Below, piece by piece: positions 30,893 to 48,799 of a stretch of DNA of 64,000 nucleotides. The stretch lies in contig NZ_PGEP01000001.1 of assembly GCF_002797445.1 (NCBI RefSeq), positions 1,239,001 through 1,303,000 on the forward strand, in the 5' to 3' direction. The stretch's first letter is position 1, and each line of letters begins with the position of its first letter. The notes below the pieces were generated by a model. That model ran no database searches and was not told the origin of the DNA. It worked only from the letters and a program-made list of their open reading frames with translations. The position numbers were made by a program, and so were the translations under genes. Origin of the DNA: Acidovorax sp. 69. Its GTDB lineage: Bacteria > Pseudomonadota > Gammaproteobacteria > Burkholderiales > Burkholderiaceae_C.

Positions 30893-30985
<93 letters not shown>

Positions 30986-30990
30986 TGCAC

Positions 30991-31030
30991 AAAGGTTTGT
31001 TGCTATTAATTTAGCAGCAAACCTTTTTTG
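30991..31030 (+). terminator. island-supplied terminator for tRNA-Ser
   Basis: AAAGGTTTGTTGCT pairs with AGCAGCAAACCTTT (14 bp with one G-T pair) around an AT-rich 8-nt loop, followed by TTTTTT. It lies 8 bp after the tRNA and just inside the island. The original host terminator is left beyond attR at 48804-48842. Confidence 0.85.
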
Positions 31031-31040
31031 CTTTATGAGT

Positions 31041-31060
31041 CATGTAGCCACCATGTAGCC
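31041..31060. promoter_or_regulatory. candidate integrase arm-type sites, left
   Basis: CATGTAGCC occurs twice, 11 bp apart. The same 20-bp double site is found at 48587-48606 near the other end of the island. Repeated short motifs flanking the att cores are what tyrosine recombinases use as arm sites. Confidence 0.5.
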
Positions 31061-31155
31061 AGCGGTACAGGGTTATGTGGCATGTATCCCGCTCTGCATC
31101 AACCAATGCACTTCGGCAATTTGCCGCGCCGGGGCCATTCGGGGTTTGCTCGGGT

Positions 31156-32124
31156 TCAACGCCCCGCTGCTTGAGGCTGTTCGTATTTCGTATGGGCAGT
31201 CAGCCCTAGCAGCGCCTCGACTTGACCTGCAGCGCGCATGACCTGGTACAGGTCGATCTGATCGAGAGTCGTGTCATCTTGTACATGCGCGGACAAGTAA
31301 CTTTCAGACTTGCTGAGCACTCCGTTACGGGCGCAGACGATGTAGGAGACCGATTCCGCCTCCAGTTCTTTCTGTGAATGCTGGAGGGGTGGGCGCTCAG
31401 GCACGTTCAGGTATCGGTCTTTCCCCAAATGCCCCAGAAACAGGTGGCCCAGTTCGTGCGCCACCGTGGCGAACTGCACGTTGTGTTCATGGTTGCGGTT
31501 GACGGTCATCTGGTAACTGCTGGGCGAATCAACCTCCTTCGCGCGCACCGTCACCCTGATGGAGCCCGCATTGCCATCGCCTGCATCCACTTCATGCCAT
31601 GCGATGTGCTTTTTGACCATTTTCTTGGCGTAGCTTTTCAGGGCGGCGGCGTCCATGGCACCGTGGGCGGCAAATGCGGCAACACCATCGGGGAGTGGGT
31701 CGCCCTCCGTATCGGCCACGTCATACACCAACGCCACTGGTCCAAACGGCCACAGTATGAGTAGTGGCCGTGCCCCGTCCTTCACGATGCGGTTGAACCG
31801 CTCAAACCAGTCCATGCGCGATGCTGCGTACAGCAGTCCGGGCTTTTGAACCTGCAAAAGCATGGCGTTGAACGGCGCAAAGTTGCGCAGCCGAATCACA
31901 AAATGGAGCAGCGCACGGAAGTCTTTTCCAGTGCGGTACAGCTTTGAATCAGACAGCAACTGATCCAGCAGTGTCCTGGCTGCTTCGGTCTCCAAAAGAT
32001 CCATTTGCTCCACGACTTCTCCATTGCGATTGCGAAGTGGGAAATACCGATGGCCCGCATCACCTGTACCAGGAAGGCAAACTTGAGTCCTGATCGTCTT
32101 AAGGAATACGCTTGCCTGTCTCAT
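31156..32124 (-). CDS. ArdC-like protein: ssDNA-binding-type N-terminus with HExxH metallopeptidase
   Basis: A 322-aa protein. Residues 48-145 (LLDQLL..., FAPFNAMLLQVQKP, WFERFNRIVKDGARPLLILWP, VYDVADTEGDPLP) resemble the ArdC/DUF1738-type N-terminal ssDNA-binding domain. Residues 206-262 hold H223-E-L-G-H227 and an ELEAE helix (E253/E257) for the third zinc ligand, as in ArdC and ImmA/IrrE-type peptidases. ArdC is known as a plasmid anti-restriction factor acting against type I systems. Here it is the last gene of an hsd operon. The ATG at 32124 overlaps the previous gene by 26 bp; a longer start is possible but less natural. Confidence 0.7.
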   Translation of the reverse strand: MRQASVFLKTIRTQVCLPGTGDAGHRYFPLRNRNGEVVEQMDLLETEAARTLLDQLLSDSKLYRTGKDFRALLHFVIRLRNFAPFNAMLLQVQKPGLLYAASRMDWFERFNRIVKDGARPLLILWPFGPVALVYDVADTEGDPLPDGVAAFAAHGAMDAAALKSYAKKMVKKHIAWHEVDAGDGNAGSIRVTVRAKEVDSPSSYQMTVNRNHEHNVQFATVAHELGHLFLGHLGKDRYLNVPERPPLQHSQKELEAESVSYIVCARNGVLSKSESYLSAHVQDDTTLDQIDLYQVMRAAGQVEALLGLTAHTKYEQPQAAGR

Positions 32125-32638
32125 CCAGGTGAATGGTTTCTCGTCCGTAGTTAAAGCGCGGCGCATCCATATCTGGCGGCCCAAGCAACAATCGCCCGCC
32201 GCACTCATGTTGAAACCCCCTGCAAACCCCGTCGTCATCAAAATTGAAAGGCAGGGTGTGTACGCTACTGCAGGTCAAGCATCGGCATTCCGTCCCGCGA
32301 GTCTGGGCCAGCCGGATCTGCCCGCGCAGTTCGTTTGCTCGCGTTTGTAGAGCGCAGGCGCGCTGCCCAAAGATTCTTGATACCCAGCGCTTGGTCCTAT
32401 AGCCAGTTGTGGAAAAGGTAGCATTCAGCGCATCCAGTTCCGTCTGCAGTGACTCAATCTCAGGTTGGGCGCCCTCCACGTCACGGGGATTGCGACAGTC
32501 GCTGCACCATCTCATCTCGCGGTGGCCATTGACCGTGGTTCCATCCGCAAAGTGATATGCCAGCGTGATGCGCCGGAACACCAAAAACCCGCGATAGTCG
32601 CAGTCGGTGCAACTGAGGGGGCCGTCGGGCATCGACAT
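32099..32638 (-). CDS. Cys-rich putative zinc-binding protein of the hsd operon
   Basis: A 179-aa protein I do not recognise. Cysteine pairs suggest zinc ribbons: CTDC near the N-terminus, CSDC at about 44-47, CRCLTC at about 118-123 and HECGGRL later. A helical, probably coiled-coil segment (IESLQTELDALNATF) lies between the first two and last two. It sits 96 bp after hsdR on the same strand and overlaps the ArdC-like gene. Nucleic-acid or protein binding is possible, but function is unknown. Confidence 0.65.
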   Translation of the reverse strand: MSMPDGPLSCTDCDYRGFLVFRRITLAYHFADGTTVNGHREMRWCSDCRNPRDVEGAQPEIESLQTELDALNATFSTTGYRTKRWVSRIFGQRACALQTRANELRGQIRLAQTRGTECRCLTCSSVHTLPFNFDDDGVCRGFQHECGGRLLLGPPDMDAPRFNYGRETIHLDETGKRIP

Positions 32639-32734
32639 AGTTTTGCCTTTTCAAATTAATCGATCTAAAAGTAGGGCGTGTCTATATCTTCCCGAGCTTC
32701 CGCGTCGCTCGACGTAGCGCCACACTGCCAACTA

Positions 32735-35700
32735 CTAGATTTCGCCCGAAATTTGATTGCTAACACTCTGCTGCCAAATATGCCGATACACCAGCTGCGC
32801 TATGTCCGCCTTGTCATCCGGCGAGTAAGGAGGCTCGGGTAGCGTTTGATAGATATGGTCCAAAACGAACGTTTCCACCTCGGCCTGGGTCTGCTCTTTT
32901 TCTGTCCAGCGGTCCAGTGGGGTAATGACCGCTAGCACGCCTGCCAACAGATCCTTGCTGGCCTGCTTGATTCGTTCCCGTTCAGTCTTGGACAGACCTT
33001 CCCGGTGCACTAGATCGAACAACGCCAATTGGTCCTCGCTGAGCCCTTCCGCTATCGCCCGACTTTGCTCCGCAGTCAAGTCGCTGACAAGGGCTGTCAG
33101 CTTGGCAAAAGTGTCTTCCACTGTGGCCCGGTCTTTGTCCTGGTTGTAGGCGGAGATGATGTTCTGGTAGACCTTCTCGTAGTTCATTCGCAGCGGGTTG
33201 CGAGCCAGCATCTGCGCCAGTTTTTCTTCAACGATCTGCCGGATATCCTCAATCACCGTGGCCTTGCGCTTCACCTTTTTGGCAAACTCGTCACGGAGCT
33301 TTTCCATGTTGATCTGCGACAGGTCCACAGTCAGCCCACTTGCCTGGTCGCTACCCACTCCTTGGGCTGCAATGGCCGTGTTGACGATGCGGTGCAGTAC
33401 CTTGAGCAATTCGCTTACATCGGCAGTGTCGCGGCGTTCATTCAGTTTCTTGTAGATGGCTTCAAGGTTGTCGTGGCGTTCTGCGTATATCAGCGCCGAG
33501 GGCTCCACCAGCAAAGCCTTGAAGCGGCCGAACACCACGCGACACAAAATTTCGTAACGTCGCTTGGCCTCATCGCTGGTGTAGACAGAATCCACCGCAT
33601 CGGCCAATAACTGGATGCGACCAAACCCTTTGCTGCCCAGCAGGGTGCTGGCATCAAAGCCCAGCCCAAGCAAATGCGCTTCAGTTACAGTAATGGCATC
33701 GGCTAGGGCTGCGACCCGTTCCTCAATCGGAGCCACGATCTCGGCGGGTCCCCCATCGTCGCCAAGGGCATACTGCGCCAACGCTTCGCGCAGGCTTTTG
33801 AGCATGCCGTTGTAGTCCACGATCAGGCCAAAGTCTTTGCCGGGGTACACCCGGTTGGCGCGGGCGATGGCCTGCATCAGCGTGTGCGCCCGCATGGGCT
33901 TATCGATATAGAGCGTGGACAAACACTCCACGTCAAAGCCAGTGAGCCACATGGCACACACCACCGCAATACGGAACGGGTGCTTCGGGTTTTTGAACGC
34001 GGTTTCCACATCCACGCGCTGACCGTCGGCAGTCTCAAACCCCAGCTTCATCACCGAGCGGTGGGGAATGATGTCAAAGTCCCATCGCTTGAAGTCCGCC
34101 ACCTCGTTTTGGGCTTCACTGATGATCAACTCAATGATGGTGTCATCCATCCACGCAGCCTTGGCCAAGAGTCGGTCGCGCTGGGCATGTAGCACCTGGC
34201 GTGCTTCGTTGTCTGCAGTGGAGGCAATCGTTGCCAACTTGGCTTGTGCCCCTGCGCGCACTGCAGCGGCCTTGGCCTTCCACAGTGGCTCGATCAGCTT
34301 GAGCATGCGGGCGCAGGTGATCTTGTCAATGCACACCATCATGGCCTTGCCTGCTTCCCATCGGGTGCTGCAATGCTCAACAAAGTCGGTGGCTATCCGT
34401 TTGAGCCGGTCATCCGCTGTGATGACTTCGTAATCCTTGCCCAACAGCTTTTCGAGCAAGGCGGTTTGATCCGGGTCCAAGTCAGATGCATCCACAGCCG
34501 CCGCAATCTTTTCGTTCAAATCAAGCTTGGCCAGGCCCAGTTTCTCGCCCCGGTTCTCGTAAACCAGCTTTACTGTGGCGCCATCTTCTTCGCTGCGCTT
34601 GAAGTCGTAGCGCGACACATAGTCGCCAAAAATCCGTTTCGTCAGCTGGTCGTGCTTGAACAGTGGCGTGCCGGTGAACCCAATGAAGGCCGCGTTGGGC
34701 AACGCCATGCGCATGGTGCGGGCCAGCTTGCCAGACTGGGTACGGTGCGCTTCGTCGGACACCACAATGATGTCGTCGCGCGCACTGTAGGGCTCATCGG
34801 GCGCCACGTCTTGGTTGAACTTGTGGATCAGGCTGAATACATAGCGGTGGTTTTCAGACAACAGGCGCTGCAGTTCGCGGCCAGAACTGGCCCGTGGGGT
34901 CTGCTCGTCCGCCACGCCACACCCGATGAAGGTCTTGTATATCTGGCTGTCCAAGTCATCCCGGTCGGTCATCAGCACAAAGGTGAAATTGCCCGGCACG
35001 GTTCGCCGCACCTTCTCGGCAAAGAACGCCATGGAATACGACTTGCCGCTCCCCTGGGTGTGCCAAACGACGCCCAGACGGCCAAGGTCGGGGTGGGCGC
35101 GCTCAATAATTTGCAAGTATTTGGGAGACGGCGCCTCGGCAGCGATGGGGTACGCGCTCTGTGGCTCGTTGGCGGCCTGGTCCGATTCGGCGTAGGGCAG
35201 CTCAATCGTGCGGTAAGTCAGGCGCTTAGCCGTAGGGAACTCGCGTTTCAATGCCTCCTGGTGCACCACAGAAGCCACCGCCTGGTTCACCCCCAGCAAC
35301 TGGTGGTTGCGCGCCACCACCTTGCGCACGGCACCCGCCTTGCTGGCGTCAAACAGAATGAAGTTTTCCAGGATGTCGAGCAGGCGGTCCTTGGCCAGCA
35401 TGCCATTCAGCAGCACCTCTGCGGCCACATTGCCCACATCGCTTTCGTGCAGGCGCTTCCATTCGCCAAAATGCTCCCAGGTGCTGGTGATGGAGCCAAA
35501 GCGGGCGTTGTGCCCGTTGCTGACAATCAGGAAGGCGTTGTGGTGGAAGGCATGGGCCACCACGTTCTCGTCCATGTAGTCGCGTAGGTTGCCGTCAAAG
35601 CCAGCGCGGATGTTTTTGTACACCGCCTTCAACTCGATGAACACCAGCGGCAAACCATTCACAAAACACACCAGGTCGGCCCGGCGGTTGTAATTGGGGG

Positions 35701-36139
35701 TGCGCAGGCCAGTGAGCTTGAGTTCGCGCACCACCAGAAAACGGTTGTTGGCAGTGTTGCGAAAGTCCACCACCGCCGCCTGCGCATGGCTCAGCTGGCC
35801 CTGGGCGTTGCGGAAGCTTACCGGCACACCATCGCGGATCAGTGCGTGAAAAGCCCGGTTGTGCTGCAACAGCGAACGTGAAAAGTCGTGGTGGGTGAGC
35901 TTGGTGATGGCCTCTTCAATCGCTGGCGGCGGAAGCTGGGGGTTGAGCAGGCACAGTGCAGCGCGCAGGTCGCGCACCAACACCGCCTCGCGCTCATTGG
36001 CGCGCCCCAAGGTGCCCGTGGGGCCAAAGGTTTCCTGGTTCCAGGCATACACGCTGTCCCAGCCCAGCATCTTCTCCAGTTGCTCCGCAAAAGTGGCCTG
36101 CACCAGGCGGTCTTCGCTGTTGATGTCGGTGTAGGCCAT
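32735..36139 (-). CDS. hsdR: type I restriction enzyme, endonuclease/translocase subunit
   Basis: A 1134-aa HsdR. The N-terminal PD-(D/E)xK nuclease is visible as RADLVCFVNGLPLVFIELKAV. The SF2 motor follows with Walker A VVWHTQGSGKS (Lys366), DEAH at 462-465 (VVSDEAHRT), FIGFTGTPL (motif III) and the helicase C-terminal half (MWLTGFDVECLSTLYIDKP, QAIARANRVYPGKDFGLIVDY). A C-terminal helical domain interacts with HsdM/S in this family. With the hsdM and hsdS genes it cuts unmodified DNA after ATP-driven translocation. All motifs are intact. Confidence 0.96.
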   Translation of the reverse strand: MAYTDINSEDRLVQATFAEQLEKMLGWDSVYAWNQETFGPTGTLGRANEREAVLVRDLRAALCLLNPQLPPPAIEEAITKLTHHDFSRSLLQHNRAFHALIRDGVPVSFRNAQGQLSHAQAAVVDFRNTANNRFLVVRELKLTGLRTPNYNRRADLVCFVNGLPLVFIELKAVYKNIRAGFDGNLRDYMDENVVAHAFHHNAFLIVSNGHNARFGSITSTWEHFGEWKRLHESDVGNVAAEVLLNGMLAKDRLLDILENFILFDASKAGAVRKVVARNHQLLGVNQAVASVVHQEALKREFPTAKRLTYRTIELPYAESDQAANEPQSAYPIAAEAPSPKYLQIIERAHPDLGRLGVVWHTQGSGKSYSMAFFAEKVRRTVPGNFTFVLMTDRDDLDSQIYKTFIGCGVADEQTPRASSGRELQRLLSENHRYVFSLIHKFNQDVAPDEPYSARDDIIVVSDEAHRTQSGKLARTMRMALPNAAFIGFTGTPLFKHDQLTKRIFGDYVSRYDFKRSEEDGATVKLVYENRGEKLGLAKLDLNEKIAAAVDASDLDPDQTALLEKLLGKDYEVITADDRLKRIATDFVEHCSTRWEAGKAMMVCIDKITCARMLKLIEPLWKAKAAAVRAGAQAKLATIASTADNEARQVLHAQRDRLLAKAAWMDDTIIELIISEAQNEVADFKRWDFDIIPHRSVMKLGFETADGQRVDVETAFKNPKHPFRIAVVCAMWLTGFDVECLSTLYIDKPMRAHTLMQAIARANRVYPGKDFGLIVDYNGMLKSLREALAQYALGDDGGPAEIVAPIEERVAALADAITVTEAHLLGLGFDASTLLGSKGFGRIQLLADAVDSVYTSDEAKRRYEILCRVVFGRFKALLVEPSALIYAERHDNLEAIYKKLNERRDTADVSELLKVLHRIVNTAIAAQGVGSDQASGLTVDLSQINMEKLRDEFAKKVKRKATVIEDIRQIVEEKLAQMLARNPLRMNYEKVYQNIISAYNQDKDRATVEDTFAKLTALVSDLTAEQSRAIAEGLSEDQLALFDLVHREGLSKTERERIKQASKDLLAGVLAVITPLDRWTEKEQTQAEVETFVLDHIYQTLPEPPYSPDDKADIAQLVYRHIWQQSVSNQISGEI

Positions 36140-36164
36140 CCCTTGTCCTCCCCAATGTCGTTTG

Positions 36165-37877
36165 TTATTCGAGCTGTTCGGCTGCCAACGCTTCGGCGGG
36201 TGTCATTGACCGCAACTTGACGTTTAGCGCCATGGCAATAGCTTTGGAGCGCTGATGAATAAACCGGTCGTAGTCGTCCGCATTGACTCCATAGCGTTCT
36301 GCATCCTGGATCAGGTGCGTTTTCAGGGTGTCGGCCAGCGCTAGATTGGTCTTGGCAAACTTCTCTGTGTACTCGCTAGGCGCCTTTTTGCCGATACGGT
36401 GCTTGTTGGAATAGCCGTCAATCAGCGTGATGTTGGCGATAAGGTTGGGCTGCTTGTCTTTGTCAAAACTGGCCAGGTACGCTTTAGGAAAAAAGTGGTG
36501 GTAATTGCGGCTGGTTGCAATCTTGAGGTTGCTGTTGTCAAGAATCACCACGCCATTGGTATCAAACGACTTCGGTTGCTGATAGGCCAACAGGCACAAG
36601 ATGGCCTTGCAATAACCATTGCCAGCCGAGAACCAAGTTTCGGCAATTTTCTGGGGTGTTACTGAAAGCTCACTGCTGGAGTAGTTGGGTGCAGTGCCTT
36701 TGACAATGGTGTCCATCTTGTTGAAGTCTTCGCTCAACTTCGACTCGGTGCCCGAGTTGTAGCGCTCCGTCAGCCCAGCCCAGTAGTAAAACTGCTCCAA
36801 CAGTTGCACCTGTTCAATGCTCGGTTTCTTGTTGGCGCTGGCGTGGAAGAAGTACACCAGTGGCACCACCAGCGCTGGGTATGGAACCAGTTGCGACACC
36901 GGCACCCGCAGTTCCGACCGAATGAAGTCAATGGCCATGAAAAGTGACGCCTTCATGGGCTCCCACTTCTCAATAAACGCCTCGCGCCGAATCTTTAGGA
37001 TGTCTTTGCTGCGCACCGCGCGCAGGGTAATGGCCGCGACGCACTGCATGATGATGGACTCAGGCAGCGTCTCGAACTTGGCAGACACCAGGCACTGTTT
37101 GTCGTCATCCGAGCCGTCACGCAGCAGTTCGTACTTTTCAGCCAAATCAAATTTCTTGGCCTCGTCATAGGTCTTGGCCACCATGATCTCGAACACCGTC
37201 AGCGACTTTCCGCCGGTGTTGATGCGAGAGAACACCTCGCACGCCACCTCAATCGGGTAATCCTTGATCGTGATCGTGGAAAAGTCGTAGTTGGTCAGCT
37301 TGTTCTTGTACGTCTCAATCAGCTTGAGAGTGTCGCGGTTGGGGAACTCATCCAGCAAATCGGTCACCTGGCTGGTCAGCACGCGGTGCACCGAAACATA
37401 ACGCTTGCCCTTCTGCTGCTCGGTCACCACGATCTGCTCGTCGTTCTCCGGGTCATGGTCCAGATTGATGAAGATGTCGCGGTAATCCACTTCCTTGCCA
37501 TCCTTGGTGATCCGAATGCCTTTGCGGATGGCATAGAGCGAGGTAATGCGCTGCTGCCCATCCAGGATGTACTGCACGTAGTCGCCCTTGTCGGTATCTG
37601 GCAGCTTGTGGTTGCCGACCTCCTTATAGCTGCGCAGTTCCTCCTTGGTCTTCCAGAAAATGAAAGTACCAATCGGGAAGCCCTTGAGGATGGAGTCAAT
37701 CAGCTTGGCCGATTGCTCCTTCTCCCACACAAACTCGCGCTGGAACATCGGCAGCTTGATCTGCCCGCTGTCGATTTCCACGAAAAGCGCTTCGTACTTT
37801 TTGTTGTGGTTGTCGGGCTGAAGCAGTACCGGCTTGTCGGAGGCGGTGGCAGGCGCTGTGGTGGTGCTGTCGTTCAT
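36165..37877 (-). CDS. DUF262/DUF1524 (GmrSD-type) protein within the hsd operon
   Basis: A 570-aa protein. The N-terminal DUF262 domain has LPMFQREFVWEKEQSAKLIDS and YILDGQQRITSLYAIRKG, the ParB/Srx-like nucleotide-hydrolysing motif. The C-terminal DUF1524 His-Me nuclease is marked by HHFFP at 460-464 followed by ANITLIDGYSNKHRIG. This is the architecture of GmrSD type IV restriction enzymes and of BrxU, which act on modified phage DNA. It lies 19 bp from hsdS and 25 bp from hsdR, all in one direction, so it is part of the type I operon. Confidence 0.88.
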   Translation of the reverse strand: MNDSTTTAPATASDKPVLLQPDNHNKKYEALFVEIDSGQIKLPMFQREFVWEKEQSAKLIDSILKGFPIGTFIFWKTKEELRSYKEVGNHKLPDTDKGDYVQYILDGQQRITSLYAIRKGIRITKDGKEVDYRDIFINLDHDPENDEQIVVTEQQKGKRYVSVHRVLTSQVTDLLDEFPNRDTLKLIETYKNKLTNYDFSTITIKDYPIEVACEVFSRINTGGKSLTVFEIMVAKTYDEAKKFDLAEKYELLRDGSDDDKQCLVSAKFETLPESIIMQCVAAITLRAVRSKDILKIRREAFIEKWEPMKASLFMAIDFIRSELRVPVSQLVPYPALVVPLVYFFHASANKKPSIEQVQLLEQFYYWAGLTERYNSGTESKLSEDFNKMDTIVKGTAPNYSSSELSVTPQKIAETWFSAGNGYCKAILCLLAYQQPKSFDTNGVVILDNSNLKIATSRNYHHFFPKAYLASFDKDKQPNLIANITLIDGYSNKHRIGKKAPSEYTEKFAKTNLALADTLKTHLIQDAERYGVNADDYDRFIHQRSKAIAMALNVKLRSMTPAEALAAEQLE

Positions 37878-37896
37878 TTTTGGGCTGGTGGTGGTT

Positions 37897-38949
37897 CTAC
37901 ACGGAAAGCTCGCCGCTCATCAGGCGTGGCAGCAACAGGTCGCGGGCGGTCCGAAGTTTTTGATTGACCTCTTCGAGTTTGTCCAACTGCGCATGAATTG
38001 ACTCAATCGTTTCATGGAAAGAGCGCAAAAGTGTGACCGGCGGATGGAGTAACGGCCGACTGTAAGCAAAGTCTCGGTTCAGGCCTGGAACAGCCACGTC
38101 GGTGCTGATGAAGTGCATATTCTTCAGCGCGTAGAAAAGGTACAGGCTACTGCTTTCAGGACTCACGAAATAAACAGTGTCGATGGGAAAAAAGCTCTTG
38201 CTTGACCAGTACACGCTACCAACATTGCCCTTACGGCCCAGAATGATTGCGGGGCCTTGGACCAGGGGCGTTTCATGGGTTCCGACGATGCCGCTCGAAC
38301 CATAAACCGGATAGTCGCCTTCAACGCGTATTTCAGCCTTCAACGCTTTGCCGTAGTTCAATGTGATTGAGTCACCCAGCGTCTTGCGCTCCCACCCCTG
38401 CGGCACGCCATCCACGACGGGGGTGTGTTCATAGCCTGGGAAGCGCAGGCGTACGAACCATTCTCGGTAGAGCAGCCGGGCAGACTCTTCGAGCAGGGCC
38501 ATGCGGCGGCAGTTGTTTTCAATCAGGTCGTCGTAGGTGGAGAGGATGTCGACAATGCGAAGTTGCAGGTCATGCGACGGCGCCTTGACCTTGATCTCGT
38601 GGAGAACATTGCGGTCAACCCCTGGTACTGCTGCTTTTTCGCTTTGATAGCCCTTCAGCACATTGCGCAATAAGTAGGCCGAAAACCTTGGATCATTGCC
38701 TTTGAAGTCGATCACATACAAGGCCGTGTTTAACGGCCAGTAGTCTTCTTCAAGGTAGAACACTTCACCAATGGTTCCGTATCGCCCCGTGACGACCCCC
38801 GGCGCCATCGCCTTTGCCTCTTTGTGGCGACCAGTGATTCCCGATGACGAGACAACGGGCACATCACCCTCCTGGCGCGAATGTTCAGGCAAGTCGTGGC
38901 CACGTTTCAGGGTCAATACGTCGCCCAGACGGCAGGTACGCCAACTCAT
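37897..38949 (-). CDS. hsdS: type I restriction enzyme, specificity subunit
   Basis: A 350-aa HsdS with two target recognition domains, the first starting WRTCRLGDVLTLKRG and the second WERKTLGDSITLNYG. Each ends in a conserved helix (LQLRIVDILSTYDDLIENN and IESIHAQLDKLEEVNQKLR). HsdS selects a bipartite recognition site. It is on the short side for the family, but both domains and both helices look complete. The recognition sequence cannot be read from the protein. Confidence 0.93.
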   Translation of the reverse strand: MSWRTCRLGDVLTLKRGHDLPEHSRQEGDVPVVSSSGITGRHKEAKAMAPGVVTGRYGTIGEVFYLEEDYWPLNTALYVIDFKGNDPRFSAYLLRNVLKGYQSEKAAVPGVDRNVLHEIKVKAPSHDLQLRIVDILSTYDDLIENNCRRMALLEESARLLYREWFVRLRFPGYEHTPVVDGVPQGWERKTLGDSITLNYGKALKAEIRVEGDYPVYGSSGIVGTHETPLVQGPAIILGRKGNVGSVYWSSKSFFPIDTVYFVSPESSSLYLFYALKNMHFISTDVAVPGLNRDFAYSRPLLHPPVTLLRSFHETIESIHAQLDKLEEVNQKLRTARDLLLPRLMSGELSV

Positions 38950-39049
38950 TGCGTAAATACCTCTATGCCAAGGTTTTTGAGTGAAAAATGGCTGTATGCC
39001 TTGCGTAGCATGCGCAAGAAGCTACCAAAAACATAGTAATCAGCAATCC

Positions 39050-41182
39050 TCATACCCCCAACTCCTCAAAGTTGGTCTGTATCTTCGCCGCCAAGTCCAC
39101 CGCCTCGCGGTTCAAGTCCGCCAGCTCCAGGTGGATGTCGCGCAAGGTTTGCTCGAAGTCGAAGTCTTCATCCACCTCGGCGGGTGCCACGCCGACAAAG
39201 CGGCCCGGGGTCAGGCTCCAGTCGGCGGCTTCGATGTCGGCACGGGTGACGACCTTGCACAGGCCGGGCACATCCGCCAATTTGGCCTGGGGAAAACGGT
39301 CTTGCAGCCACACGATCTGGCGGTGCAGGTAGGCGCACTCCTTGAGCTGTTCGACCCCTGACTTTCGTTGTTCGTCGAGCTGCTTGATCAGCTTGTTGAC
39401 GGAGCGGCGGTCGTAGAACTCGGCAGCCTCCTCTTGGGTGGCCAGCTCTTGCACCAGCTGTGAGGCGCGGGCAGCCAGTTTGTAGAGCAGGTCAATCTGC
39501 TTGACCAGGCCCCGAAGGGAGTCGGCCAGGGGGTCGAAGGCTTTACGGGCGGCGTGCTGGGCCTTGTTGTTTTGCGGGGGCTTGGCAATGTGCTTGCAGT
39601 ACGCGGCCAGCTCAGTGACCGAAGTTGTGCGATCAGTAGCGTAAGCACTGACAGCACCACTCCATTCCGCCAAAGCGTCGGCAAGCCCTTGGCGTTTTTC
39701 CAGCGGCAGGGCTTCGATGTTCTCCACGCTGTCCATGAATGCCGCAAGAGGGGCGCGGCTGTCTGTTAGTGCGGTCTCAAACGCGGAGAGCGCGGCATCC
39801 ACGGCGCCAGCCTCGGTGCCCAGGCGGGTGATGTAGCTTTGCACCAGCTCTAAAAACCGCTCTTGCTGGCCTCGGTATAGCCAGACGATGGCGGCTAGGT
39901 TGACCTGCTGTTCGGGCGAGAAGTCGTAAATCTTGCGGGTGACTTTGCGGTACACATTACGCGCGTCCAGCATCAGCACTTGGTCTTTGCGCTCGGCAGG
40001 CTTTGAGCGGTCAAAGTGCCACAACTCGCAAGGCACGGTGCGGGTGTAGAAGAAGTTGGAGCGGATGGCGATCATCACGTCCACATCACCCGTTTCCACC
40101 AGTTTGCGGCGCACTTCTTTTTCGCCATGCCCGGCGCTGCTGGCCTGGGACGACATGACAAAGCCTGCCCGACCCTTGGGCGACAGGTAGCTGTGAAAGT
40201 ACGAGATCCACAGGTAGTTGCCGTTGGAAACGTGCTTGTCTTTGTTAACACCAGGCAGGCCAAAAGGCAGGCGGCGGTCAGTCTTCACGGCTTCGGCATC
40301 CACCTTGTCCACATTGAACGGCGGGTTGGCCATCATGAAATCGACATTGCCCCACAGCGGGCGGCCATCTTGCAGGCGGTGAGCGTCTACGTAGAAGGTG
40401 TTGGCTTCCTGAATGTCGCCCTCCAGACCATGCACGGCCAGGTTCATCTTGGCCAGTCGAATGGTGGTGGGGGTCTTTTCCTGGCCATAGAAGGTGACCC
40501 GCTTCATGGTATCCAGGCCTTCGTGCTCGATGAAGTGGCTGCTCTGCACAAACATGCCACCCGAGCCACAGGCCAAATCCGCCACCACGCCGTGGTCTGG
40601 CTCGATCACGCTCACCAACAATTGCACCAAGGAGGGAGGGGTAAAAAACTCGCCATTGTCTTGTGCGCCCTGCATGGCGAACTTCATCAGGAAGTATTCG
40701 TAGATACGGCCAAACACGTCGCCCGTGGCGGTGCGCAGAGCTTCACTGTCAAAGCAGCGCAGCAGGTTTTCAAGCAACTTGTTGTCGAAGCGGTCGTAGT
40801 CTTTGGGCAGGCTGCCCTGCAGCGGGGGAAAGTCGGCCTCGATGGCGTTCATGGCGGCCACCAGGGCAGCGCCCAGGCTGGCGCCAGACGGCAGGTTCAG
40901 CAGAGTGTCATACCGGGCGGCATCGGGCAACATGAGGGCCCGGCGTTTGATGAAGTCAGCCTTGCCCAAAGGGCGCTTGGGCATGGTGCCTGCGGCCTGG
41001 GCGGCTTCAATGGCGTGCAGCGCGGCCTGGTAGCGGTTGGTGGCGTGGCGCAGAAAGATCACGCCCAGCACCGGCATCGAGTACTCGGTGGCGGTTAGGT
41101 TGGAATTGGCGCGGAGTTGGTCGGCGGCTTCCCACAGGCTGGCTTCGGTCTGGGTGATGTTGTGGAATGCGTTGGCGGTCAT
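39050..41182 (-). CDS. hsdM: type I restriction enzyme, adenine methyltransferase subunit
   Basis: A 710-aa N6-adenine methyltransferase. The AdoMet-binding region is VADLACGSGGMFVQS, and the catalytic motif is N286-P-P-F. The N-terminal helical domain starts with SLWEAADQLRANSNLTATEY. The C-terminal region is longer than in EcoKI HsdM and includes a coiled-coil stretch (DRRSVNKLIKQLDEQRKSGVEQL). First gene of the hsd operon; hsdS starts about 100 bp downstream. Confidence 0.95.
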   Translation of the reverse strand: MTANAFHNITQTEASLWEAADQLRANSNLTATEYSMPVLGVIFLRHATNRYQAALHAIEAAQAAGTMPKRPLGKADFIKRRALMLPDAARYDTLLNLPSGASLGAALVAAMNAIEADFPPLQGSLPKDYDRFDNKLLENLLRCFDSEALRTATGDVFGRIYEYFLMKFAMQGAQDNGEFFTPPSLVQLLVSVIEPDHGVVADLACGSGGMFVQSSHFIEHEGLDTMKRVTFYGQEKTPTTIRLAKMNLAVHGLEGDIQEANTFYVDAHRLQDGRPLWGNVDFMMANPPFNVDKVDAEAVKTDRRLPFGLPGVNKDKHVSNGNYLWISYFHSYLSPKGRAGFVMSSQASSAGHGEKEVRRKLVETGDVDVMIAIRSNFFYTRTVPCELWHFDRSKPAERKDQVLMLDARNVYRKVTRKIYDFSPEQQVNLAAIVWLYRGQQERFLELVQSYITRLGTEAGAVDAALSAFETALTDSRAPLAAFMDSVENIEALPLEKRQGLADALAEWSGAVSAYATDRTTSVTELAAYCKHIAKPPQNNKAQHAARKAFDPLADSLRGLVKQIDLLYKLAARASQLVQELATQEEAAEFYDRRSVNKLIKQLDEQRKSGVEQLKECAYLHRQIVWLQDRFPQAKLADVPGLCKVVTRADIEAADWSLTPGRFVGVAPAEVDEDFDFEQTLRDIHLELADLNREAVDLAAKIQTNFEELGV

Positions 41183-42270: not shown

Positions 42271-42601
42271 GTTGTGCTTTCTGTTGAGGCGTTTGCGTCC
42301 CAGCGTCAATCGATGCTTGGCTGACCCGTGCCGTGTCATCCAAATCCAGAGATGCGCTGCGGAACCGGAGGGCCGTCGCGGCGCTGGTGTCGGGGTCAAG
42401 GTCAACCACCCAGTCCAGCAAACGGCCCGTGGTGTGGTGCGCCGATTGGAGTAGCTCAATCAGGGCGGGCTTGTGCTGCCGGATGCCCGCACGAAGCTCA
42501 TCGTTCAGGCGATTGGCAGGCGTCGCCGTCAGCTTGTGGCCGTCGGTTTCCAGGGTCAGGCCAGCGTGGTGCAGCGCCAGGTAGAGGGCGAAGACGGGCA
42601 T
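42254..42601 (-). CDS. TubC N-terminal docking-domain-like protein
   Basis: A 115-aa protein. Residues 5-52 (LALHHAGLTLETDGHKLTA, DELRAGIRQHKPALIELL) match the TubC-N docking fold seen in mobile-element proteins as well as in polyketide/NRPS docking. It overlaps the DUF3987 stop by one base. In islands this small protein typically accompanies the DUF3987/primase genes and may mediate protein contact. Confidence 0.65.
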   Translation of the reverse strand: MPVFALYLALHHAGLTLETDGHKLTATPANRLNDELRAGIRQHKPALIELLQSAHHTTGRLLDWVVDLDPDTSAATALRFRSASLDLDDTARVSQASIDAGTQTPQQKAQHDPTE

Positions 42602-44148
42602 CAGAATTCCTCGCTTTCAGAAACGGCCTGCGAACTATGCGAAGTAAGCGAAGAATCAAGGCTGGCAAGGGTTTCAGGTGTTTTTGAGGCATCGCTAACT
42701 ATGCGAACTTGGCGAACTAACGCCGGGTAGGGGTGGCTTTGTTCGCTTACTTCGCTTTGTTCGTGAAGTCCAACATCTGCCGCAAACCCGCGTGGTTGCT
42801 TGTTGTTCGCATAGTTCACTTTGTTCGCAGCCAATTCGTAGAACTTGGTCGGTCGGCCTGCGCCGCTGCGATTCTCCTGTACGGTAACGAGTGGCGGGTT
42901 GCAGGACAACAGCTCGTCGAGCGCCGCATCAATGCGGTTTTTGTTCACATGGCCCTTGAAACAATCCACCGTGATCTGCTTGCGCGTCACGCGCTGGTGC
43001 GCGGTCAGAAAGTCCACGATCTTTTGGGCCGTTTCGTTTGTCTCGGCAACTTCCACTTCGTCGGCTGCGCTGCCAAAAACGAACTTGATGGAGTCCACGC
43101 TGTAGCGCACCCAGGCCAGCGCCGCATTGATGTGACGCACCTCCACCATGGTGGTCAGGTCGCACAGGGCGAACAGCATGGCCAGGCGCAGCAGCATGGG
43201 GGCACGGCGCTCAATCAATGCTGTGATGCGTTCGCCTGCAGAGTTGTCGTTCAGCTCGCTGTGATACAGCACCTCGTAGCGCTTGCGGGCGTCTGGCGAC
43301 AACTCCACGCGCATCTTGTCCTTGTCGGCCCAGCGCTCGGCCCGGCAGAACTGCAACACCTCCAGCACGCGCGCTGCAAGGGCGTCCACATCCTCCTGGC
43401 GCGCGGCGCGGGGGAAGGCCAGCATCTTGGTGCGTTCAGCCCAAAACATCAAAAAGCGGTTGGCAAAGCCGTTCGTGAGTTCCCTTGATGCCATGAGGCC
43501 CAGCAACTCAGAAGGCGTTACAGCACCCACCAGTGCGATATGCGGGTCAGTCGCCCAAAGGCGGCTGCTCTTGGTCGCTGGTTTCATGCTCACGCCGTCC
43601 CAGCAGTCGCGCAGCGCCGTCGACAACGTATTCCCTTCGCGTTTGCCTTGGTGCAGGATGTTGGCGAACTCGCTTTCGATCACCAGAAGGCGCTTGTCGA
43701 GGATGGCCTCCACTTCGGTTTTGCCCTCGGTGTAGCCATCGTGGATCAGGTACACCAGGCCCTCACGGGATGACAGGCCACCACGGTGCACTTGTGGCGT
43801 GGCGTCCTTGCTCAAGGCCTTGAGGGAGTGTTCGATCCGGCCGATCAGCGATACCGCATCACCCTTGCGGCCACGGCCCGAGCGGCCAATATGCAGCATG
43901 AACATGCGTGCGTGGTGCCAGGTGTTGCCGATGGGCATGTACGGCCCACGTCCCACGGAGCATCCCATGAAGGCGATAAAGTTTGCGGCGATAGCGTAGG
44001 GGTTGGCTTCGGTGGTGTCGCTGCCTGCGCGGGCCACGTCGCCCACCAGGCCATAAAGGCAAGCGGGATCAGGTCGGGGCGCGTTGCGGTGGTTGTCGAG
44101 GCCGTCGTCGTCTGCCGCGTCGGCCAGGATGTTGAAGTCGCTGTTCAT
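42601..44148 (-). CDS. DUF3987 protein (phage/plasmid replication helicase-primase type)
   Basis: A 515-aa protein of the YfjI/DUF3987 family. Features are CSVGRGPYMPIGNTWHHARMF, GRSGRGRKGDA (a Walker-A-like loop), VIESEFANILHQGKREGNTLS and a C-terminal winged-helix-like segment. These proteins accompany primase or toprim genes in islands and prophages and are presumed replication initiators or helicases. It shares one base with the upstream toprim gene, so the two are tightly coupled. Confidence 0.82.
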   Translation of the reverse strand: MNSDFNILADAADDDGLDNHRNAPRPDPACLYGLVGDVARAGSDTTEANPYAIAANFIAFMGCSVGRGPYMPIGNTWHHARMFMLHIGRSGRGRKGDAVSLIGRIEHSLKALSKDATPQVHRGGLSSREGLVYLIHDGYTEGKTEVEAILDKRLLVIESEFANILHQGKREGNTLSTALRDCWDGVSMKPATKSSRLWATDPHIALVGAVTPSELLGLMASRELTNGFANRFLMFWAERTKMLAFPRAARQEDVDALAARVLEVLQFCRAERWADKDKMRVELSPDARKRYEVLYHSELNDNSAGERITALIERRAPMLLRLAMLFALCDLTTMVEVRHINAALAWVRYSVDSIKFVFGSAADEVEVAETNETAQKIVDFLTAHQRVTRKQITVDCFKGHVNKNRIDAALDELLSCNPPLVTVQENRSGAGRPTKFYELAANKVNYANNKQPRGFAADVGLHEQSEVSEQSHPYPALVRQVRIVSDASKTPETLASLDSSLTSHSSQAVSESEEF

Positions 44149-45068
44149 TACTTACCCTCCAGCCACACGTCGGCCCAGTCGGCGCCGGGGCGCGATGGTG
44201 TCAACGTCTTGTTGTTGATTCCGGCCTTGTTGGCACGTTGCGCCAGCGCGGCGGCAGCTTGTTGGCCTGCGGGATCGTTGTCTGCAAAGATCACCAGGCG
44301 GTCGATGCCACGGGGCCAGTGAAAGCCGCTGAGGGCATTGGCACAGTAGGCGGCGACCACGGGCAGGCCCGAGCCCAATGACGCGGCCGCGGCGGTTTCG
44401 ATACCCTCTGCGATGCCCAGTACGCCACCACGAGGAGCGGCCAAGGGAATGCAGGCGCCAGCCAATGACGCTGATGCTGCCGTCAACTTCTTGGGCGTTG
44501 GAACGTCTGCCTTCTTGCCCCCAGCCAGATAGGTACGGTGGATGGCGAGCAGATTTCCGTCGCGCACGATGGGCGCCAGCATGGCCGGGAAGCGTCCCAA
44601 CTCCTGCAGGACCCCGTCATCGTCGGTGTGCCAGTACGCCAAGCCGGAGTGCTGACGGATGCAGGATGGGATAGCCCAGTCGCCCAGGCCGCGCTGCGCT
44701 AGGTAATTTCGAACCGAAGCACCAGCGGGGGCGGATGCCTTCCATAAGCGGGCATTGCGCTCGGCGTTCTTGTTCCACTGGATCCGTTCGTCCGCTTCGC
44801 GCTCGCGGGCGGCCTGTGCAATGTGCTGGCGCATCGCAGCCAGCTCAGCGGGAGACTGGTGCTGGGGTTGGTGGGCGCTCCAGCGGCTGCTGGTGTTTTG
44901 GCGGTAGTCGCCAAAGACGCCCCCCAAACCATCGGAGAACAGTTTGGCCCAACCTGATTTTTTCGGACCAAAACGGCAGAAGCGACCCGGCTCTAGGTGT
45001 TGAGGTGCGTGGCCCAGGCTTGCCTGGATCGCCCCAATAAACTCGACTGTGGAGTTGAGCGCGTTCAT
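44148..45068 (-). CDS. toprim-domain primase-like protein
   Basis: A 306-aa protein. The C-terminal toprim motifs are GVLGIAEGIETAAAA (catalytic Glu) and RLVIFADNDPAGQQAA (DxD). The middle part (RNYLAQRGLGDWAIPSCIRQHSGLAYW split over two strands) matches DUF7146/phage primase proteins. There is no N-terminal zinc finger. It probably primes island replication with the DUF3987 protein. Confidence 0.85.
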   Translation of the reverse strand: MNALNSTVEFIGAIQASLGHAPQHLEPGRFCRFGPKKSGWAKLFSDGLGGVFGDYRQNTSSRWSAHQPQHQSPAELAAMRQHIAQAAREREADERIQWNKNAERNARLWKASAPAGASVRNYLAQRGLGDWAIPSCIRQHSGLAYWHTDDDGVLQELGRFPAMLAPIVRDGNLLAIHRTYLAGGKKADVPTPKKLTAASASLAGACIPLAAPRGGVLGIAEGIETAAAASLGSGLPVVAAYCANALSGFHWPRGIDRLVIFADNDPAGQQAAAALAQRANKAGINNKTLTPSRPGADWADVWLEGK

Positions 45069-45511: not shown

Positions 45512-46441
45512 CTATTTGAGGCGCTGCGTGAAGGCGCTGTAGCCCTGCGGCTTGTGCTTTTCGCTCGGCAGTTTCCGTCGAATCAATTGCGTTGAAACGC
45601 CGAAACGTTCGGCGGTCTTTTTGGTGCCGTGCTTGTCCCGAAAAGCCTTCATCTCAGCCAATTTTTCATCTGTCCAGACCTTGACATTGCCCGGCGCAAT
45701 GCTGGCGCGATCAGTCGCCATGGGCGCGGTGTTAACTTGGTGAGGCTTTAACAAATCTCTTACGATGGCTTTGCGCCATTTGTCCTGCGCGTCGTTGTGA
45801 GCGGATTCGGCTTCGCGTGCTTTTTGGCGATACGGGTTCACTGCGGCTAAGTACGCCAAGCGCCGTTTTTCCTGGACTTCTCCCGGCTGGCTTTTGTCTG
45901 TCCAGTCGTTCGCGGCCTCGGCCGCAGTTTCGGCGGTGTCCAATTCCTCGTTTGCTCTAGCGAGCGAAAGCCAAATTTCGGGGTCAGGGCTGGGGGCACG
46001 CAGTTGCGCACTGTGGAGTTCACTGAAAGCTGACGTGATGGACTCACGCAGCTTAGCGTCCAGCTGTCCGCTCAAAAGCAACGGTACGACCTCAGCATTG
46101 AGCACGCCAGTGCCATCCGAGAATCGCTCGCCAAGATGCCAGCCCCAGCCACCCAGCATAAAGGCTGCAAGCTGCCGCGCCGTGAAGGGGAACGGAAGGG
46201 CAGGCGTTGCGAGTGGGTCCGGGCTCTCAAAGCCTTCTTCTAGGTCGCAAACAGGAGTCCAGTTCAAGGCGTCTACTACATCGTTCTTGCGTAGCCAAAC
46301 GCCGTCATCTCGGATGTCGTAGTTCCCGCGCACCGTGCTATCGGGCACATGCCATTTCCCGGTCTTTGTCAGCACTACATCGAGAGTATCGAGCAGTCCC
46401 TCGAAAACAGCGCGCGTGTACTGAGGTTCCTGGGCCGTCAT
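45512..46441 (-). CDS. hypothetical protein with C-terminal helix-turn-helix
   Basis: A 309-aa protein with no family I can name. The middle is helical and charged (WLSLARANEELDTAETAAEAAND, EKRRLAYLAAVNPYRQKAREAE). The C-terminal segment EMKAFRDKHGTKKTAERFGV then STQLIRRKLP is a helix-turn-helix that resembles resolvase/transposase-type domains. A strong CAGGAGG ribosome binding site precedes the ATG. It ends next to the iteron repeats and could bind them. Confidence 0.65.
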   Translation of the reverse strand: MTAQEPQYTRAVFEGLLDTLDVVLTKTGKWHVPDSTVRGNYDIRDDGVWLRKNDVVDALNWTPVCDLEEGFESPDPLATPALPFPFTARQLAAFMLGGWGWHLGERFSDGTGVLNAEVVPLLLSGQLDAKLRESITSAFSELHSAQLRAPSPDPEIWLSLARANEELDTAETAAEAANDWTDKSQPGEVQEKRRLAYLAAVNPYRQKAREAESAHNDAQDKWRKAIVRDLLKPHQVNTAPMATDRASIAPGNVKVWTDEKLAEMKAFRDKHGTKKTAERFGVSTQLIRRKLPSEKHKPQGYSAFTQRLK

Positions 46442-47211: not shown

Positions 47212-48549
47212 TTACAAAACTGCACGCAGCTTGCTCGGCTCGCTGGCGCTGTCGAACGTCACTCCGGCTTGTTCCAGAATCCATGCCTCGATACGCTCAT
47301 GGTGCATGCGCAGCAGGTCCAGGGGGCGCACGGTGTAGTGCTTCTCTGCCGTAGCGCTCGGCTTGTGGCCCATGATTTGAGCCACCACACCAGCAGGTAT
47401 TTCCAGCCATTCGGTCAAGCTCTTGAAACTGCGGCGAAGGCCATGAATAGTTAGGTCGTCGATTCCCGCCACTGCGCAAGCGTCGTGGTGTGGATTGCGG
47501 GGTATGACGATGCACCCACCAGCGGCCGTAGTGCTGGAAAAAACAAACCCATTGCGGCGAGGTAGTGCGGCCAACAGGCTCCACACGTAAGGCGTCAAAG
47601 GGATGACGCGGGTGCCCTCTACCTTGTCTCGAATGGTCAGTCCGCGCCACTTTGTATTGATGTCATCCCACCGCAGGCCGAGCACTTCGCCAGCCCGCGC
47701 ACCGGTCAGCAGCAGGGTTTGCAGATAGGCGGCAATCACTGGGTTTTGTTGCTGGCGCACGGCGGCAAACCATGTAGGCAGTTGCTCTTTCAATAGCGCG
47801 TCCTGCTTCACCCCGGCTTTACCCAAACTCTCGCGGGCCTTATTTGTCTTGGCGGGGTTGGCGCTGGAGAGCACCGTCGCATATACCGGCTGCTCTGCGC
47901 ACCACCTCAGAAAGGCTTTCAGGCAGCGCCATGCAAGCCGGGCTGCTGCAGGGCGGGTCTGCGCCTCGCGTTCGGCCCATGCTTCAATAACAGGCGCTTT
48001 CAGGTGGCGCAGCGGCATGGCCATGAGCGGGTGCAGTATTCCTGGGGCGGTCACGCCACCGGCGGCCCGGTTGGATGCCACTCCGCCAGGCTTCACCAAC
48101 AAAAGATGTTCCTTGTAGTGACGTTCTCCCCAGCGCGGTTGGCGGGCTTCGAGGTAGACAGCCCACACCTCACCCACGGTCACGGCCTTGGCAGCGGCGG
48201 CGGCTTTCTCTGCGGCCTTTTCTGCCTGTTTCTGGCGTTCAATCTCTCGCGGGTCTTGCCCGTTGTCCAGCACCACAGCAAGGCGACGGGCTTCGGTTCT
48301 GGCCTGTTCAATGCTCCACAGTTTCACATCGCCAATCGTGCGGCGGATGGTTTGGCGGTTCAGCTTGGCCTCGTACACAAAAGACTTGGCGCCCGCAGCG
48401 GTCACACGCACGCGCAGGCCGGGCGCTTCGCTGTCGCGCATGAATGCCTGTTGCTTGCCATCAGGGCAAGCCAAACGCTCGATTGCGCCAGCGGTCAGGT
48501 TGATGCGCTCAGCAAGATCTGGCGCATCGGTCTTCTTGGGGCGTGCCAT
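47212..48549 (-). CDS. int: tyrosine site-specific integrase of the island
   Basis: A 445-aa P4/DUF4102-type integrase. N-terminal arm-binding domain ...GLRVRVTAAGAKSFVYEAKL; core-binding domain around residues 110-220; catalytic domain with TGARAGEVLGLRWDDI (first Arg), HGLRRSFKSL (His-x-x-Arg), MGHKPSATAEKHYTVR (His and nucleophile Tyr). The ATG at 48549 is chosen over upstream codons, which lie in the CATGTAGCC repeat zone. It lies next to attR and reads into the island. Confidence 0.93.
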   Translation of the reverse strand: MARPKKTDAPDLAERINLTAGAIERLACPDGKQQAFMRDSEAPGLRVRVTAAGAKSFVYEAKLNRQTIRRTIGDVKLWSIEQARTEARRLAVVLDNGQDPREIERQKQAEKAAEKAAAAAKAVTVGEVWAVYLEARQPRWGERHYKEHLLLVKPGGVASNRAAGGVTAPGILHPLMAMPLRHLKAPVIEAWAEREAQTRPAAARLAWRCLKAFLRWCAEQPVYATVLSSANPAKTNKARESLGKAGVKQDALLKEQLPTWFAAVRQQQNPVIAAYLQTLLLTGARAGEVLGLRWDDINTKWRGLTIRDKVEGTRVIPLTPYVWSLLAALPRRNGFVFSSTTAAGGCIVIPRNPHHDACAVAGIDDLTIHGLRRSFKSLTEWLEIPAGVVAQIMGHKPSATAEKHYTVRPLDLLRMHHERIEAWILEQAGVTFDSASEPSKLRAVL

Positions 48550-48570
48550 GCTGATTGCTCCGGTCGGTTT

Positions 48571-48606
48571 GGCTACATGGCGATTCCATGTAGCCACCAT
48601 GTAGCC
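48571..48606. promoter_or_regulatory. candidate integrase arm-type sites, right
   Basis: GGCTACATGG (48571-48580) is the inverse of CCATGTAGCC, which follows twice at 48586-48606. The double site is identical to that at 31041-31060 at the left end. CAATCAACACT also occurs twice between here and attR (48632-48642, 48706-48716). The sites sit over the integrase gene's 5' region, so they may also regulate it. Confidence 0.5.
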
Positions 48607-48733
48607 AAAAATCCCCAATTTTGAGGAATATCAATCAACACTAATACTGTTTGCGCATCCAGTTAAATTCCGTAAGTTGTTGATTTGTATTGATTCTAGC
48701 AGTGGCAATCAACACTGTGAAACATAAATTTTG

Positions 48734-48799
<66 letters not shown>

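Follow-up and report, generated by a model that had tools for sequence, protein, structure and literature searches.

The restriction operon and its island

The DNA analysed in this study is a 64,000-nucleotide stretch of the Acidovorax sp. 69 genome (the window; all coordinates are positions within it), and its subject is a minus-strand restriction operon that ends with a gene encoding an ArdC-like protein. The operon consists of six co-directional genes in the order hsdM, hsdS, a GmrSD-like gene, hsdR, a gene for a cysteine-rich (Cys-rich) protein and the ArdC-like gene (Table 1). This order had been proposed at these coordinates in a preliminary description of the window, and the open reading frames (ORFs) together with Pfam, PADLOC and NCBIfam matches bear it out. 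hsdM, hsdS and hsdR form a full type I restriction-modification set, open and complete, with the NCBIfam match of hsdR passing the cut-off and that of hsdM falling below it. The operon genes are spaced 19-100 base pairs (bp) apart, and a consensus scan found no terminator-like site on the minus strand within these gaps. Across the region, terminator-like sites numbered 12 versus 12.2 in shuffled sequences, and the scan gave no sigma-70-like promoter versus 3.4 in shuffled sequences.

The operon is cargo of a 17.8-kilobase (kb) island integrated at a tRNA-Ser gene, since the island is bounded by perfect att repeats and relatives carry the empty site. The search for empty sites covered 47 genomes, that of Acidovorax sp. 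69 included; in the four same-genus genomes checked by coordinates (G044, G004, G022 and G040), the left- and right-flank matches share exactly 66 bp. The ArdC-like gene adjoins attL. A 21-bp direct repeat (tandem CATGTAGCCA) lies just inside both att sites, at 31041-31061 and 48587-48607, and may represent integrase arm sites.

Table 1 Features of the operon and the island in the window (aa, amino acids)
Feature	Position	Strand	Remarks
hsdM, N6-adenine methyltransferase	39050..41182	-	710 aa; Pfam N6_Mtase E 3e-68, PADLOC
hsdS, specificity subunit	37897..38949	-	350 aa; Pfam Methylase_S, PADLOC
GmrSD/BrxU-like gene (DUF262)	36165..37877	-	570 aa; Pfam DUF262/GmrSD_N E 2e-31, PADLOC
hsdR, type I restriction subunit	32735..36139	-	1134 aa; HSDR_N, SWI2_SNF2, T1RH-like_C; Pfam, PADLOC, NCBIfam
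Cys-rich protein	32099..32638	-	179 aa; two predicted zinc clusters joined by helical hairpin
ArdC-fold zinc metalloprotease (predicted)	31156..32013	-	285 aa; GTG start; HExxH 186-190; glutamate helix ELEAES 216-221
Candidate terminator, 15-bp hairpin + T tail	30991..31026	unstranded (listed on +)	between attL and ArdC-like stop; consensus match only, count not above shuffles
tRNA-Ser (CGA), insertion site	30893..30982	+	
attL, 66-bp direct repeat over tRNA 3' part	30920..30985	+	repeat search
attR, identical 66-bp copy	48734..48799	+	repeat search
Tyrosine integrase	47212..48618	-	Phage_integrase, Arm-DNA-bind_3
Island DUF3987 protein + Toprim primase	42601..45068	-	Pfam

The ArdC-like protein

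The start of the ArdC-like gene was reassigned. The preliminary description had placed it at 32124, which would make the gene overlap the Cys-rich gene. Close homologues are mostly ca. 285 aa long and begin at the residue equivalent to the GTG at 32013, which is preceded by GGAG; one of them, P0008 (327 aa), has a longer predicted N-terminus. Because the homologue starts match this GTG, it was taken as the start, and the proposed overlap gives way to a gap of 85 bp downstream of the Cys-rich stop.

The likeness to ArdC, for which structure prediction had been suggested as the check, holds at the level of the predicted fold and of the protease-core profile and is not seen in the Pfam search. 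Pfam gave only PF06114, whose 21.7 bits fall just short of the cut-off of 22, and weak matches to PF18818 and Reprolysin_3, with none to ArdC_N (PF08401) at E<=0.1. A profile comparison with ArdC matched the protease core (hhalign 93.5%, E 2.4e-7), the similarity being confined to the protease half. The predicted structure has the two-domain fold of ArdC, with an N-terminal Rad4-BHD-like domain that would bind single-stranded DNA (ssDNA) and a C-terminal metalloprotease domain. After ArdC, its structural neighbours include PprI (also with ssDNA) and CapP, and a mycobacterial transcriptional regulator ranks between. The HExxH and glutamate-helix metal ligands are present, and the active site is conserved across relatives. 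By its model, then, the product of the last operon gene is a stand-alone ArdC-fold protein with a predicted ssDNA-binding N-domain and an IrrE/Spartan-like zinc protease C-domain.

PADLOC-DB 2023 holds no dedicated model for this protein, and its matches were limited to RT_III-A (E 9e-7) and capP (E 0.0014). The former joins the C-terminal half of the protein to the end of the RT_III-A profile; if RT denotes reverse transcriptase, there may be defence reverse transcriptases that carry a fused protease domain of this kind. Among the relatives, P0031 (498 aa) extends well beyond the ArdC-like region at its C-terminus, and P0046 (493 aa) may do the same.

Neighbours and distribution

The ArdC-like family is a large one, with 1998 of 4582 candidates matching at E<=0.001. 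Its genomic neighbours were surveyed at loci found by two peptide patterns (64 genome and 2 viral loci), to which plasmid and further genome loci were added. Excluded before the count were L060 and L069 (near-copies of L008 and L068), L001-L003 (the window itself, or superseded by L082), L070-L077 (short) and L083 and L084 (the same as L059 and L046), so that 73 loci, the window included, were kept. A locus was scored as linked when HsdM/S/R, a PglX/DISARM-type methylase, type III Mod/Res or DUF1156 lay in an uninterrupted same-strand run with the ArdC-like gene; L025, L037, L056, L065, L066, L067 and L082, which have no usable ArdC-like ORF, were counted as not linked. Labels were given by profiles and script-made seeds derived in part from the same loci, and those used on the tree below were set by hand.

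By this rule, 36 of the 73 loci are linked, the restriction or methylase genes in their runs belonging to type I, type III or DISARM/Hma-like systems; L017, L055, L056 and L082 were also linked by eye (40/73). Same-strand linkage was seen in ten phyla (phylum names from the records). Partners recognised by PADLOC or Pfam include a DpdE/DrmD-like helicase with a DrmMI/type IIG-like methylase (L022), Hachiman HamB (L018), type III Res (L030), type III Mod and Res (L082), Hma (L085) and Mrr (L010 and L020). An N6 methylase lies within 10 kb at 24 of 65 loci (window excluded) versus ca. 1% for a random point, a baseline of 130 matches in 264.7 Mb that draws on one bacterial order, one Pfam family and rounded genome sizes. 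The ArdC-like gene is downstream of the system at 28 of the 36 linked loci, upstream at 7 and on both sides at 1. Packing can be tight, at -4 bp to hsdM in L007 and -1 bp in L053, where the ArdC-like gene is split. Besides restriction genes, the widest neighbour cluster reached 6 of 64 loci.

Partner types were also mapped on a tree of the family, from which rows shorter than 200 aa were left out (61 of the 66 loci with an ORF kept; 27 rows unlinked). With four labels, 27 changes were needed, the mean of the shuffles being 28.7 (51 of 200 shuffles gave a value no higher); for the type I label alone, the figures were 13 and 15.7 (no higher in 36 of 500). The partner type is thus freely exchanged, with weak clustering at most.

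Three loci gave separate observations. In L056 (9935-12730), a 931-aa ORF runs from an ArdC-like N-domain into HsdM; the locus is from a metagenome-assembled genome, and a deletion has probably joined the two. In L049 (9212-9943), and likewise in L017 (1056-1814), a YgjP/SprT-like peptidase gene immediately precedes the ArdC-like gene, so that the restriction cluster encodes two metalloproteases.

The ArdC-like protein was found in 5 of 72,556 plasmids, as compared to 3,096 for R388 ArdC, and in none of 50,697 phage records. Three of the five plasmid records were examined: the best has a transposase and metabolic genes nearby, and the two others have helicase or methylase neighbours.

No Pfam match over the cut-off was obtained for the Cys-rich protein. 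A profile search with it returned 72 proteins at E<=0.001, falling into two groups by length and identity, and a held-out profile recovered the L020 member (E 8.5e-5, among 4651 ORFs). Its model (pLDDT, the predicted local distance difference test score, of 83) shows small beta regions flanking a helical hairpin on both sides. The spacing of the conserved residues (C10-C13-C45-C48 and C120-C123-H144-C146) points to two putative zinc clusters. The gene is present in 1 of 369 genomes of the class (that of Acidovorax sp. 69), in 2 of 47 of the genus (the same genome and G037, where it sits 2 bp after a type III res gene), in 4 of 298 of the genus of L020 (including that of L020 itself) and in 2 of 18 genomes having an ArdC-like gene (those of L004 and L020). 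Of its 7 places, 4 adjoin an ArdC-like gene, and the Cys-rich gene is therefore an optional companion; three genomes carrying it show no hsd genes in the stretches read and no ArdC-like match genome-wide.

The preliminary description had also placed a type IV-like gene within the type I operon. Pfam, PADLOC and a match to BrxU agree with this, and the arrangement is already known: published examples of GmrSD-like genes within type I operons come from V. cholerae (VPI-2) and C. jejuni (RloF) (PMC11411939, which cites work by Payne and colleagues on such embedded genes; papers are cited here by PubMed Central (PMC) accession and on the basis of excerpts). BrxU (7p9k) was the sole sequence match of the GmrSD-like protein in the PDB at E<=10 (E 1e-15), and its best PADLOC profiles were PDC-M55C and HEC-05, the latter spanning residues 30-555. 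Its DUF262 domain (PF03235) contains the QR, DGQQR and FxxxN motifs, read by eye as defined in PMC11411939. DUF1524 was not called by Pfam at E<=0.1, and a His-Me-finger-like H...N...N stretch is visible by eye only. Genes of the TgvAB/BrxU/RloF type, known from type I and other defence clusters, agree with the present one in combining DUF262-family membership with a place in an island-borne hsd operon, whereas TgvA and TgvB form a pair and the Acidovorax operon has a single gene (PMC11411939). Relatives of the window's GmrSD-like gene lie near the ArdC-like gene in L018, L030 and L068, where the partner systems differ.

Beyond the island, ca. 4 kb past attR, an ORC-CDC6-like ATPase gene (667 aa; 52883-54886, minus strand) lies in a patch of low GC content (0.52).

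Possible roles of the ArdC-like protein

A mechanism is constrained by the predicted ssDNA-binding/protease fold, the conserved active site, the exchange among systems that combine a methylase with a translocating motor, and the tolerated loss of the gene. The reading that we tentatively prefer is that of a plug-in protease for restriction alleviation, which would act on the motor where self DNA is unmodified. On this view, restriction systems that depend on methylation would have the ArdC-like protein as an add-on component. Through ssDNA it would be drawn to DNA that is damaged, undergoing recombination or has just entered the cell, and there it may cleave or displace the translocating restriction motor (HsdR, Res or a DISARM-like helicase). 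Self DNA not yet modified would thus be spared, with alleviation provided in cis and not through ClpXP. In some members, the Cys-rich zinc protein may serve as an optional adaptor or substrate. The broader proposal, that an undescribed ArdC-fold protease family forms a transferable alleviation module by which type I, type III and DISARM/Hma-like systems stop their own motors on self DNA that lacks modification, is a speculative extension and more doubtful than probable.

Built-in control of the hsd nuclease alone, as the preliminary description had it, is too narrow, because relatives are also found next to type III and methylase-helicase systems, and because hsd or mod/res genes remain open at some loci whose ArdC-like copy is broken. 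Moreover, both the ArdC-like and the Cys-rich genes, which it had tied to hsd, were found without hsd neighbours.

Several observations weigh against the alleviation reading. In the model, the N-terminal 120 residues have low pLDDT (blocks 35-76) and the root-mean-square deviation to ArdC is 8-9 Å; two relatives (L013 and L087) are without HExxH, and the anti-restriction activity of R388 ArdC does not require its protease activity. The family is rare in the class (8 of 369 genomes, own included and one only at E 8.5e-4), and among 99 relatives it occurs in two, one being Acidovorax sp. 69 itself and the other (G037) having a truncated copy that matches residues 11-95 only. As many as 37 of the 73 loci have no recognised restriction gene in the run, several with long flanks. 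Loss of the ArdC-like gene is tolerated (L053, L055 and L082): broken or truncated copies stand beside open restriction genes in L053, L055 and G037/L082. The gene is thus not an obligatory safety device, although sequencing error is possible in some of these cases.

The protein may instead promote defence in the manner of PprI/IrrE and CapP, as a sensor protease switched on by ssDNA that appears on infection or damage; it would cleave a repressor or inhibitor and so raise the restriction operon or release an effector. In PprI/CapP-type pairs, the repressor gene adjoins the protease gene as its substrate. No helix-turn-helix repressor was recognised among the operon genes or the scanned island genes, the non-adjacent island gene at 45512-46441 having a sub-threshold match to the Phage_CP76 regulator (Pfam, E 0.086), and the neighbour clusters described above reveal no common partner. 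Such a role would fit the conserved active site, the place of PprI and CapP among the structural neighbours next after ArdC, the location of the gene on the defence side, rare on plasmids and not found in the phage records, and the activation of PprI by ssDNA (PMC10904395). On balance, we regard it as an unlikely, though competitive, explanation.

Strict ArdC-type anti-restriction, in which the protein shields island DNA from resident restriction in a new host and its adjacency to hsd reflects cargo clustering near the att site, would agree with the ArdC fold and with a gene adjoining attL on a mobile island. This is improbable: the protein is in far fewer plasmids than R388 ArdC and in none of the phage records, and same-strand linkage in ten phyla is more than one island would give. 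Still less credence is given to a hitch-hiking defence-island gene without a functional tie to the adjoining restriction genes, since the tight same-strand packing and the N6-methylase enrichment over the baseline speak against it, even though the loci lacking a recognised restriction gene and the free exchange of partners speak for it. A DNA-protein-crosslink protease (Spartan/SprT-like) that removes stalled restriction or methylase complexes from DNA is equally improbable.

Compared with known systems, the protein resembles ArdC of plasmid R388 (PDB 6SNA/6I89) in the predicted two-domain fold, the HExxH core with glutamate helix and its length (285 vs 297 aa), but differs in the missing ArdC_N match, in profile similarity limited to the protease half and in belonging to a restriction-linked family almost absent from plasmids. 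Polyvalent proteins share the pairing of ArdC-N and MPTase domains in conflict genes; they are multidomain and occur in phages and conjugative elements, and the excerpts of PMC5512222 describe no stand-alone restriction-linked form, though its authors suggest that one ArdC-N protein was perhaps acquired by a host for defence. The ImmA/IrrE regulators IrrE/PprI and CapP differ, as the island protein has an ArdC-type N-domain instead and no adjacent repressor was recognised. The RptR-RMS-DarTG-M48 island likewise embeds a metallopeptidase gene in a type I operon, whereas its peptidase is of the M48 family, not the ArdC fold, and the repressor RptR is present (PMC12255303). Proteolytic control of HsdR in the alleviation of EcoKI by ClpXP is analogous to the job proposed here, ClpXP being a housekeeping AAA+ protease without a dedicated operon gene (PMC4231737).

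No description of an ArdC-like gene as a part of restriction operons was found in the excerpts of open-licence PMC literature searched, a scope outside which most subscription papers fall. The association across systems suggests a possibly undescribed plug-in part. Some restriction systems are independent of ClpXP. The alleviation reading bears on how systems outside ClpXP control spare the unmodified host genome on arrival (background in PMC4231737). If it is true, a dedicated protease that accompanies systems of all three kinds (type I, type III and methylase-helicase) would be an immediate candidate for this task, and the ArdC fold, which plasmids use to defeat restriction, would serve both sides of the restriction conflict.

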